A stretch of 34,305 nt of DNA, from positions 1 through 34,305 of the forward strand of contig JALTFO010000017.1 of assembly GCA_027007005.1 (NCBI GenBank), written 5' to 3'. Origin of the DNA: Candidatus Bipolaricaulota bacterium (GTDB taxonomy: Bacteria > Bipolaricaulota > Bipolaricaulia > UBA7950 > UBA9294). The number at the start of each line of letters is the position of its first letter. Position 1 is the stretch's first letter. Below the pieces are notes generated by a model. The model searched no databases and was not told where the DNA came from. It was given only the letters and a program-made list of their open reading frames with translations. This document shows, piece after piece, positions 2,549-21,101 of the stretch. The translations under genes and the position numbers were made by a program.

Positions 2549-3462
2549 TGGCGTGGGTAGATAGGCTAAAGAAAGGATTGAGCAAGGCTCGCTTGGGGTT
2601 TGCAAACTCACTTGGTAATGTCCTCAAGGGCGGGAAGAAGCTGAGTGCTGACCAGATCGAACAGGTCGAGGAGATCCTCATCTCAGGTGACGTCAGTGCC
2701 CGTCTGGCGACACAGCTAGCAGAAAGCCTTGCCGAGCATAGCCGCCAAGAACTTGCAAACGGCGGCTTGATGGCTGTACTAGAAGGAGAAATACGAGAGC
2801 GGCTGCAGGGTTGCGAACGCAAGCTGGCAGTCCGCAGTGATGGCCAGCCAACGGTGGTCATGATGGCGGGAGTGAACGGTTCCGGGAAGACGACAACCGC
2901 CGCTAAGATCGCCTCACGCTTGCGGGAGGATGATCCGAAGATGCCGATCACCTTCGCTGCCGCGGACACATTCCGAGCAGCAGCGATCGATCAACTCGCC
3001 GTGTGGGCCGAGCGCATTGGCGTCGATCTCGTTCGCCATAGCATCGGTGCCGATCCATCCGCCGTTGTCTTCGACGCTATCGATCACACACAGCGCGTAG
3101 GGGGAGTCCTCATAGTCGATACCGCGGGTCGTCTCCAGACTAAGCACAACTTGATGGAGGAGCTCACAAAGATAGAGCGGACTGTCACAAAGAAGCTTGG
3201 ACGCGGCTCGGACGAGAGACTACTTGTCCTCGACGCAACCACCGGCCAGAATGGAATATCGCAGGCGACCAAGTTTCATGAGGCGATAGACCTGACCGGG
3301 ATCGTCATCACGAAACTCGATGGAACTGCGAAGGGTGGGGTAGTACTATCAATCTGGGATCAGGTTCACGTCCCGCTACTCTACATTGGCGTAGGCGAGG
3401 GTAAGGAAGACCTGCACGAGTTCTCTGCGCATCAGTTTGTGGAGGCGCTCTTTGAGAATTGA
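2548..3462 (+). CDS. ftsY: Signal recognition particle receptor FtsY
   Basis: SRP GTPase motifs GVNGSGKTTTAAK, DTFRAAAIDQL, VDTAGRLQTKHNLMEEL, TKLDGTAKGG; start overlaps the argS stop (TAATG). Confidence 0.96.
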   Translation: MAWVDRLKKGLSKARLGFANSLGNVLKGGKKLSADQIEQVEEILISGDVSARLATQLAESLAEHSRQELANGGLMAVLEGEIRERLQGCERKLAVRSDGQPTVVMMAGVNGSGKTTTAAKIASRLREDDPKMPITFAAADTFRAAAIDQLAVWAERIGVDLVRHSIGADPSAVVFDAIDHTQRVGGVLIVDTAGRLQTKHNLMEELTKIERTVTKKLGRGSDERLLVLDATTGQNGISQATKFHEAIDLTGIVITKLDGTAKGGVVLSIWDQVHVPLLYIGVGEGKEDLHEFSAHQFVEALFEN

Positions 3463-6280: not shown

Positions 6281-6358
6281 TTCGCTCTGCCAGCTCAATC
6301 TCTTCGCGTGAGCAAGAAGTCATTTATCTCGACCGTCCGCTATGCTCGCTCAAGATCA

Positions 6359-6387
6359 CAACGTGGCAGACAAGCTGCTCACGCTAC
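6359..6387 (+). repeat. 29-bp dispersed repeat, copy 1
   Basis: CAACGTGGCAGACAAGCTGCTCACGCTAC, identical to the reverse complement of 13983-14011. Confidence 0.85.
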
Positions 6388-6427
6388 AGGAGCGTAGCAA
6401 TGAACGCGAGAGTGTTTCTATCCTTTC

Positions 6428-13935: not shown

Positions 13936-14069
13936 GAACATGGCGGACAAGATGCAACGCTGCAAAAGATTCCCTGGCTTCCGTAGCGTGAGCAGCTTGT
14001 CTGCCACGTTGAGAACCGCTCACGACACAAATCCACAAGCCGGGCGTTGCATACAAGATACAACGCTGC
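13936..14069. repeat. Composite palindromic intergenic repeat (contains copy 2 of the 29-bp repeat)
   Basis: GAACATGGCGGACAAGATGCAACGCTGC (13936-13963); inverted relative GTAGCGTGAGCAGCTTGTCTGCCACGTTG (13983-14011); third related copy ACAAGATACAACGCTGC (14053-14069). Confidence 0.75.
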
Positions 14070-18774: not shown

Positions 18775-18804
18775 TTGCGTTTCACGTCGCCCCTCTGGTA
18801 CCGT
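18775..18804 (+). promoter_or_regulatory. Candidate leaderless promoter of csaB
   Basis: TTGCGT (18775-18780), 18-bp spacer, TACCGT (18799-18804), then ATG at 18811 with no SD. Confidence 0.45.
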
Positions 18805-18810
18805 TTTGTC

Positions 18811-20139
18811 ATGAACGAAACGCCGATTGTCATCGCTGGTTACTACGGGTATGGGAACCTCGGTGATGAGGCGATCCGTGTTGCGCTGCGAGAGGAACTT
18901 GCGAAGCATGGCATCGGTGCGCTTTGGCTCACTGCTCGTCCGCAAGCAGCCGATGAGATCGATCGCAAGTCACTTTATCGCGTCTACGCAGCGCTGCGGC
19001 AGGGCCGTGCGCTCGTTCTCGGTGGCGGCGGGTTGCTGCAGAATAGGACAAGCAACCGCTCGCTTTTGTATTACCTTGGGTTGATCGGCCTTGCGCGCAT
19101 GGCGAGGCGGCCTGTCCTCCTAATCGGGCAAGGGATTGGTCCGATCCATGGGCGCTTTGCACGGCATATGACGCGCATTGCACTGAAACGCGCATCATAT
19201 GTTGGTTGCCGTGACCGCGAAAGCGCTAACTTCCTACGCGGAATGGCGCTGGATGCTGTGATCGATGCAGACCTGTTCTTCCTCCTTCCCCCGATTGAAG
19301 CTTCATCGACGCGGTCCTCAGCGGTGCGTAACATAGTCCTCTGCCTGAAAGGGACGAAGAACGAGGGGCTTCTTTGTCGTTCCAGGTTGGTAACTCAAGA
19401 GAAAGGGTCAAGCTTCAAGACGCTCCCAGAGACAAAGAACTGTCTCACCACGAAGGACACGAAGGGGTCAGAGGACGAAACGCTTGATCCTGCTCCTGAG
19501 CTTGGTCACATTGCACAGCCAATTAGGGCATTTGATAGCTCATCGAGTTCCATTCTTCGTGTCCTTCGTGCTCTTCGTGGTGAATTCCCTTTGGTATCCG
19601 TCCCGCGCAAACCGAAATCGGAAATCACTGCCCACCCGAAACGACAAAGAACTGACAAGGCCGAAATGGTCGAGAAGACTGTGTACACGCTCGATGAGGT
19701 CTCACGGATGGTCCAGATCTCAGTCACCGTCCTCCCATTCTTCCCCGCGCAGGATTTGGCCCTTAGCCAGGTGATCGCTGAGCGGGCTAGCATTCGCTGC
19801 CGTATTGTGCAAGCCGATACGATCGACAATACAATGCACGTGCTTGAGGGAGCAGACCTTGTGATCTCATCACGCTTGCACGGGCTAGAGTTCGCGCTGC
19901 GCGCAGGCGCGCCAATGATCGCGGTAAGCGAAGACGCAAAGATTGACGCCTTCGTCGCTGAGGTGGAAGAGAGCTGTGAATTGCGCATCCCATGTGCCCG
20001 TTTCCCATCCTCGAAGCAGGTGATGCAGGCCATCAACTCACCGCCATCGCCTGAGGTTTTGTATGCCGCATATCGCGCCATGCACACGCGGGCGATAGAG
20101 GGATTCTCACGCTTTGTCGCAGCACTGGAGAGACTATGA
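18811..20139 (+). CDS. csaB: CsaB-type polysaccharide pyruvyl transferase with an in-frame insertion
   Basis: MNETPIVIAGYYGYGNLGDEAIRVAL; LVLGGGGLLQNRTSNRSLLYYLGL; VLLIGQGIGPI; SRLHGLEFALRAGAPMIAVS. Segment of about 100 aa after VLCLKG is atypical. Confidence 0.85.
   Translation: MNETPIVIAGYYGYGNLGDEAIRVALREELAKHGIGALWLTARPQAADEIDRKSLYRVYAALRQGRALVLGGGGLLQNRTSNRSLLYYLGLIGLARMARRPVLLIGQGIGPIHGRFARHMTRIALKRASYVGCRDRESANFLRGMALDAVIDADLFFLLPPIEASSTRSSAVRNIVLCLKGTKNEGLLCRSRLVTQEKGSSFKTLPETKNCLTTKDTKGSEDETLDPAPELGHIAQPIRAFDSSSSSILRVLRALRGEFPLVSVPRKPKSEITAHPKRQRTDKAEMVEKTVYTLDEVSRMVQISVTVLPFFPAQDLALSQVIAERASIRCRIVQADTIDNTMHVLEGADLVISSRLHGLEFALRAGAPMIAVSEDAKIDAFVAEVEESCELRIPCARFPSSKQVMQAINSPPSPEVLYAAYRAMHTRAIEGFSRFVAALERL
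19370..19651. repeat. Palindromic repeat element inside csaB
   Basis: Nested inverted arms: TTCTTTGTCGTTCC (19370-19383) vs GAAACGACAAAGAA (19638-19651); TCACCACGAAGGACACGAAG (19445-19464) vs CTTCGTGTCCTTCGTGCTCTTCGTGGTGA (19555-19583). Confidence 0.8.
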
Positions 20140-21101
20140 GCATGGAAGGAACAGATTATCAAGCTATCCACCGGCCGGTGCTCATGCACGAGGTCGTGAA
20201 GTTGCTGTCTTTGTGGCCAGGCGCAGTGATCGTTGATGGGACCATCGGCATCGGTGGGCACAGCGAGACGCTCCTTTCGGCATACCCGACGATTGAAGTG
20301 ATCGGCATCGACCGCGACGAAGACGCTCTTTCAATCGCCAAAGAGCGGCTTTCTTCGTTTGGTGATCGAGTCCGCCTTATTCACGGGAACTACCGCGATT
20401 GCGTCGAGATCTTGGGCGAGCTTGGAGTGGAGAGGATCGATGGCTTCCTCCTCGACCTTGGTCTGTCGTCGCTCCAGCTAGATCGACCCGAGCGCGGGTT
20501 CAGCTTTCGCGCAAGTGGTCCCCTCGACATGCGCATGGATCCTACGCGCGGAGTGAGCGCCGCCGAACTGGTCAATACTTCATCAGAAGAAGAACTCTCT
20601 GGCATCATCTCTCGCTACGGTGAAGAGCGATTTGCACACCGTATTGCCAAAGCCATAGTAACAGCGCGCGCGCAAGGGGAGATTAAGACAACGGATGAGC
20701 TCGCGAAGATCGTCTACGGCGCGATCCCTCGTAAGCTCCACCCACCGCGCATCCATCCGGCGACGCGAACTTTTCAGGCGCTGCGCATCGCGGTAAACGA
20801 TGAGCTCGATAATCTAAAAGCAGGGCTGGAAGCCGCCTTCTCCGTTCTCGCGCCAGGAGGGGTGATGGCGATGATCAGCTTCCACTCTCTGGAGGATCGC
20901 ATCGTTAAGGGGTTCTTCCGCTACAAGGCCCTCTCCTGCATCTGTCCACCGGATCTCCCAGTCTGCATGTGCGACAAGAAGGTGGAGATGGAGGTGCTGA
21001 CAAAGCACCCGATCACCCCCGCGCAAGAGGAGCTCGCGATAAACCCTCGGTCGCGCAGCGCAAAGCTACGAGCAGCGAGAAAGCTTGAAGTGCCCAACTA
21101 G
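20136..21101 (+). CDS. rsmH: 16S rRNA (cytosine(1402)-N(4))-methyltransferase
   Basis: HRPVLMHEVVKLL, DGTIGIGGHSETLL, GFLLDLGLSSLQLDRPERGFSF, RTFQALRIAVNDEL, ISFHSLEDRIVKGFF. Confidence 0.97.
   Translation: MSMEGTDYQAIHRPVLMHEVVKLLSLWPGAVIVDGTIGIGGHSETLLSAYPTIEVIGIDRDEDALSIAKERLSSFGDRVRLIHGNYRDCVEILGELGVERIDGFLLDLGLSSLQLDRPERGFSFRASGPLDMRMDPTRGVSAAELVNTSSEEELSGIISRYGEERFAHRIAKAIVTARAQGEIKTTDELAKIVYGAIPRKLHPPRIHPATRTFQALRIAVNDELDNLKAGLEAAFSVLAPGGVMAMISFHSLEDRIVKGFFRYKALSCICPPDLPVCMCDKKVEMEVLTKHPITPAQEELAINPRSRSAKLRAARKLEVPN

Follow-up and report, generated by a model that had tools for sequence, protein, structure and literature searches.

A MITE with the ends of an ISL3-family IS element has very likely inserted in frame into csaB, the polysaccharide pyruvyl transferase gene of a Candidatus Bipolaricaulota genome, leaving an enzyme with a tolerated insert of about 98 residues. 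The gene was analysed within a stretch of 34,305 nucleotides (the window; features in table 1), and comparisons were made with the congeneric genomes G001, G002 and G003, the window genome being G000.

The reading frame containing csaB (18775–20139, ATG of csaB at 18811) is open throughout the segment, and the gene precedes rsmH and a penicillin-binding protein gene. The product was matched by the CsaB profile TIGR03609 at 214.8 bits against a cut-off of 213.1 with the insert present, and by PF04230 with E 2e-28. Each profile matched in two stretches with the segment in between, in agreement with the sequence-only reading, in which about 100 codons unlike the enzyme had been noticed in the csaB frame before family sequence resumed. 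When the segment was excised, the TIGR03609 match became a single stretch of 229.3 bits. All invariant columns of a 28-sequence family alignment were present in the window protein, and pyruvylation of cell-wall polysaccharide is its predicted function, as assigned from sequence. The protein resembles CsaB as defined by TIGR03609 in that both profile halves were matched above the curated cut-off, and differs in having about 98 additional residues in its middle. A PDB sequence search with CsaB returned no close CsaB structure, the only match being a weak one to Pyruvyl transferase 1 (5ax7), and a search of the genome contigs with the protein as query gave no match.

csaB is interrupted after about residue 183, and residues from about 184 to 281 are extra. 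The approximately 95 insert residues had no counterpart in an alignment with CsaB homologues from other genera of the family, the comparison that had been proposed for locating the borders of the insert. The element and its 8-bp target duplication together span 294 bp, or 98 codons, in the window gene. The proposal that a palindromic element had entered csaB in frame held up. The TIRs of the MITE are GGYTCYTTGTCRTTYCRAGTGGGTAA, and aligned copies start with a sequence resembling GGCTCTTTGTCATTCCAAGTGGGTAA and finish with a near inverse of it. The nested inverted arms were found as they had been described: the outer arms, of 21 nt and 86% complementary, lie at 19370–19390 and 19631–19651, and the inner arms pair 19445–19465 with 19563–19583 and 19449–19464 with 19555–19570, the latter pair over 16 nt at 100%. 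Within the window, the TIR pattern was matched twice (0.00 expected) and the 16-mer, with up to three mismatches, four times (0.39 expected).

Table 1. Features of the csaB region, in window coordinates.
Feature	Position	Strand	Details
csaB, polysaccharide pyruvyl transferase	18811..20139	+	442 aa including insert; TIGR03609, PF04230
MITE	19368..19653	+	286 bp; borders ±1–2 bp; common end points of copies in G001–G003; paired TIRs
left TIR	19368..19390	+	3 mismatches to GGYTCYTTGTCRTTYCRAGTGGG; 0.00 expected
right TIR	19631..19653	-	2 mismatches to TIR pattern; ends like those of the ISL3-family IS in L130
left target-site duplication relic AACGAGGG	19360..19367	+	5/8 match to right relic
right target-site duplication relic GACAAGGC	19654..19661	+	5/8 match to left relic
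inner palindrome left arm (TCACCACGAAGGACACGAAGG)	19445..19465	+	16-mer core 18 times in genome
inner palindrome right arm (CTTCGTGTCCTTCGTGCTCTTCGTGGTGA)	19555..19583	+	inverted-arm and 16-mer searches
rsmH/mraW	20136..21101	+	PF01795, E 1e-117; directly after csaB; divergence yardstick

Copies of the arms, predicted to exist elsewhere in the genome and its relatives, proved abundant. The exact 16-mer CACGAAGGACACGAAG was found 18 times in the window genome (reversed control, 0), and the whole segment used as query matched 70 pieces there (E ≤ 1) and 28, 26 and 60 pieces in G001, G002 and G003, respectively (E ≤ 0.01). Many aligned copies finish at two identical points. Perfect 8-bp target duplications flank 6 of the 14 TIR-paired elements, against none among mismatched flank pairs, and 8 bp is the duplication length across the family. 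The CACGAAGGA palindrome is a second repeat, which lies inside the MITE and also stands alone at many sites; its exact 16-mers number 10–24 per genome within the genus versus 0–3 per genome elsewhere in the class. Some MITE copies, among them those in L115, L121, L119 and L101, also carry 27-nt hairpins (CCTGTCT...ACAGGCAGG) at two fixed positions, which adds a third layer of nesting; the G003 csaB copy has such a hairpin (L124, about 3300–3330) and the window csaB has none. When named genomes were scanned for the exact TIR, matches were found only in Candidatus Bipolaricaulota MAGs and congeneric contigs, a plasmid search for the element gave none, and no Rfam family, introns included, matched the segment, by which identity as a structured RNA family or intron was ruled out. 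The segment is thus a MITE that has ISL3-type ends and a nested CACGAAGGA palindrome: it is 286 bp long, has TIRs, encloses no transposase gene and is represented in each genome by tens of copies or pieces, while fixed-length target duplication is seen at the level of the family, the window copy itself retaining 5/8. The sequence-only reading was right that a palindrome is present, but a single repeat was ruled out, the palindrome being nested in a larger element.

A likely mobiliser was found in G001, where a 1,369-bp element at locus L130, bounded by GGTTCCTTGTCGTTTCGAGTGGGTAA/GGTTCCTTGTCATTTCGAGTGGGTAA, encloses a 434-aa ORF. Its transposase was assigned to ISL3 because it matches PF01610 (E 4e-67) and PF13542 (E 6e-10). 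Both 26-nt ends of the element are the same as those of the MITE, and locus L132 in G003 is a decayed IS element with these ends. Of the four congeneric genomes, three have PF01610 transposase genes or fragments, the window genome fragments only. Target duplications of 8 bp are typical of ISL3. The MITE therefore resembles this IS family in its 26-nt ends, as in the G001 element, and in its 8-bp duplications, and differs in having no transposase gene, the ends alone being held in common; judged from these sequences, the 1,369-bp IS element is the MITE's likely mobiliser.

In G003, csaB carries a similar insert at the same place, in the same orientation and in frame, spanning 115 codons. Element plus 8 bp amounts to 345 bp there versus 294 bp in the window, both multiples of three, so that the inserts differ by 17 codons, and neither contains a stop over its 115 or 98 codons. 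An assembly chimera is unlikely, because the insert is found in two separately assembled genomes. The target duplication in the G003 gene, read from sequence, is AACGATGG/GACGATGG (7/8 match). These data suggest that a single insertion probably took place in the common ancestor of the two species. Two independent insertions, or gene conversion, would be a variant of this explanation and not an alternative to it, and we consider it unlikely. In its favour, the element tree did not resolve the two csaB copies as a sister pair, so that a sister-clade proof of one insertion was dropped; they share just 2 rare states, against 19 in a clearly orthologous pair of copies in G000 (C23) and G002 (C163); and the 27-nt hairpin of the G003 csaB is common to other copies in G003 and G001 and not to those in G000. 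Position and orientation, however, are identical in both species, and the csaB pair has diverged by about 25%, much like the C23/C163 pair (about 21%).

Selection was estimated by comparing G000 with G003. dN/dS was 0.13 for the N part of csaB, 1.02 for the insert (bootstrap 0.60–1.96) and 0.28 for the C part, against 0.13 for rsmH (dS 0.88), and changes in the insert showed no codon-position pattern. Both enzyme halves are thus under purifying selection, and the insert residues are free to change. The constraint on both halves makes translation through the insert the best explanation. The divergence of the insert is nevertheless below synonymous divergence in its flanks (0.6–1.15), which is unexplained under pure neutrality; gene conversion among copies or constraint at the DNA level are possible causes. 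The C23/C163 copy likewise diverges less than the synonymous sites of its flanks. As a separate observation, copies in or near genes (window 19368–19653 compared with L124 3007–3343) diverge evenly by codon position and less than their synonymous flanks.

An AlphaFold2 model of the window CsaB was built from 28 homologues. The core had pLDDT values mostly above 90, whereas residues 185–246 and 257–276 fell below 50, with a short helix (247–255) between these two stretches. In the model the insert sits in the loop between strand 173–178 and helix 283–300. Foldseek matched the model to GT-B-type enzymes, e.g. UDP-GlcNAc 2-epimerases, and the insert is predicted to be a mostly disordered loop of a GT-B-like two-domain enzyme. 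The CsaB protein very probably carries the roughly 98 extra, apparently disordered residues. Its identity as a conserved domain, which had been named as the finding that would speak against an insertion, was ruled out by its absence from other genera and a dN/dS of about 1; the one congener that carries the segment (G003) does so with no amino-acid constraint.

The following course of events would account for these data. A MITE with ISL3-family ends, moved in trans by a same-ended ISL3 transposase, would have transposed into csaB, probably in the ancestor shared with G003, and created an 8-bp target duplication. The gene would have stayed open because the combined length of element and duplication was divisible by three and one frame of one strand lacked stops. 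With the insertion in a strand–helix loop, about 98 residues would protrude in a largely disordered form; ribosomes would translate through them and the enzyme would retain its activity and remain under selection, while the insert drifts under little constraint other than to keep its frame open. Open frame and indel lengths were too weak to be used as proof by themselves: at least one open frame was found in 28% of shuffled segments, the probability of both csaB copies remaining open by drift was about 0.1, and one in two indels in the elements has a length divisible by three, partly owing to a 9-bp inner repeat unit.

Other fates of the gene were weighed against this account. Were csaB split, the N half would end in the element or be dead and the C half would be translated alone from an ATG (the M of EMVE). 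Both species have retained this ATG just behind the element, in the window AAGG lies 5 nt before it as read from sequence, and the dN/dS of 0.28 for the C part would by itself be compatible with a separate protein; but a GT-B-like fold needs both halves and both are constrained, and the two species have kept stop-free stretches of 98 and 115 codons with element plus duplication at a multiple of three, so that a split is very improbable. Bypass of the insert by ribosomes, or its removal from the RNA, would yield an enzyme without it. Mobile bypass elements are known elsewhere, and the predicted RNA fold of the segment is very stable (z = −5.35), yet such a process would have no need of the open frame and multiple-of-three length that both species kept, and the lack of a match in Rfam, introns included, also tells against it; we give it hardly any credence.

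It is scarcely more plausible that CsaB has domesticated the insert as a functional module maintained by selection. Its retention in two species, a divergence below that of synonymous flank sites and the short helix predicted at 247–255 could be read in this way, whereas the dN/dS of 1.02 with no codon-position pattern, the 17-codon length difference and the predicted disorder could not; the C23/C163 copy, probably situated upstream of its gene, moreover diverges slowly too. The in-frame, tolerated MITE insertion thus remains the preferred reading.

The phenomenon has precedents. RPEs are short, open-frame repeats whose ends are inverted; they sit in frame within genes for conserved proteins and are tolerated by the enzyme, and an RPE-bearing Gmk was shown to be translated and active (PMC2229807, PMC10969869). 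In-frame MITE fusions have been reviewed for ERIC and the 107-bp Correia element (PMC2229807, PMC5896051), and Coxiella QMITE frames are fused into genes (PMC5896051). The analogy with RPEs that had been drawn from the sequence holds for an inverted-end short repeat with an open frame, in frame inside an enzyme gene, and for the peptide frame shared among copies. It fails for recurrent insertion into many genes: RPEs account for 19 reading frames in Rickettsia, while among 55 copies or fragments whose flanks were examined here csaB was the sole clear example of an in-frame insertion in mid-gene, with a recognised family matched on either side. The csaB element is also about twice as long (286 bp versus 105–146 bp), and duplications, marked '?' for RPEs in the review table, are found in its family together with a same-ended transposase element. 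With ERIC, Correia and QMITE it shares non-autonomy, TIRs, target duplications and in-frame fusions; those are found in other hosts and are, as far as described, different elements. The csaB MITE is accordingly a lineage-specific case of a known phenomenon, in-frame insertion of a MITE or RPE, with a plausible transposase. In-frame palindromic inserts are best known from Rickettsia, and a comparable event is now seen in an unrelated candidate phylum, in a case that combines element ends, duplication length, empty-site homologues and a same-ended transposase. The sister species supplies a selection test in which the enzyme is constrained and the insert of about 98 residues is not, so that tolerated junk versus new protein matter can be tested directly in one enzyme, CsaB.

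The frame is open end to end, and the same frame, in csaB of both species, in G003 copies C21 and C9 and in the C23/C163 pair; in the other MITE subfamily the shared frame is broken. The C23/C163 copy (L110 2376–4058, L109 597–2312) lies in frame before a secreted NosD/DsbA-like, beta-helix protein, probably upstream of the true start of that gene, and may either extend the protein at its N-terminus or be no more than leader DNA. Copy C21 (L111 1829–2290) shares its frame with a weak match to the C-terminal half of a ParE toxin domain (E 1e-4). The open-frame subfamily might conceivably be an ISL3-driven portable peptide, inserted in csaB, before the secreted protein and at the toxin remnant by an RPE-like route, although we regard this as doubtful; if true, a candidate phylum would have an RPE-like mode of altering proteins for which the transposase is known.

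Excision of the copies C31 and C25 of G003 and C37 of G001 yields joined, longer frames, and these copies may disrupt genes. A genome of another genus (G007) has its own MITE type (L138 415–869), bounded by GGCTCTTCGTCGTTTTGAGTGGGTAA and flanked by a perfect 8-bp duplication, for which 15 end matches were found in the genome, many of them at contig ends. The window also contains a 38-nt inverted pair with a GTAGCGTGAGCAGCTTGTCTGCCACGTTG core (6356–6393 and 13977–14014, 92% complementary); similar text occurs in L017, and the pair therefore represents another genome-wide repeat family.
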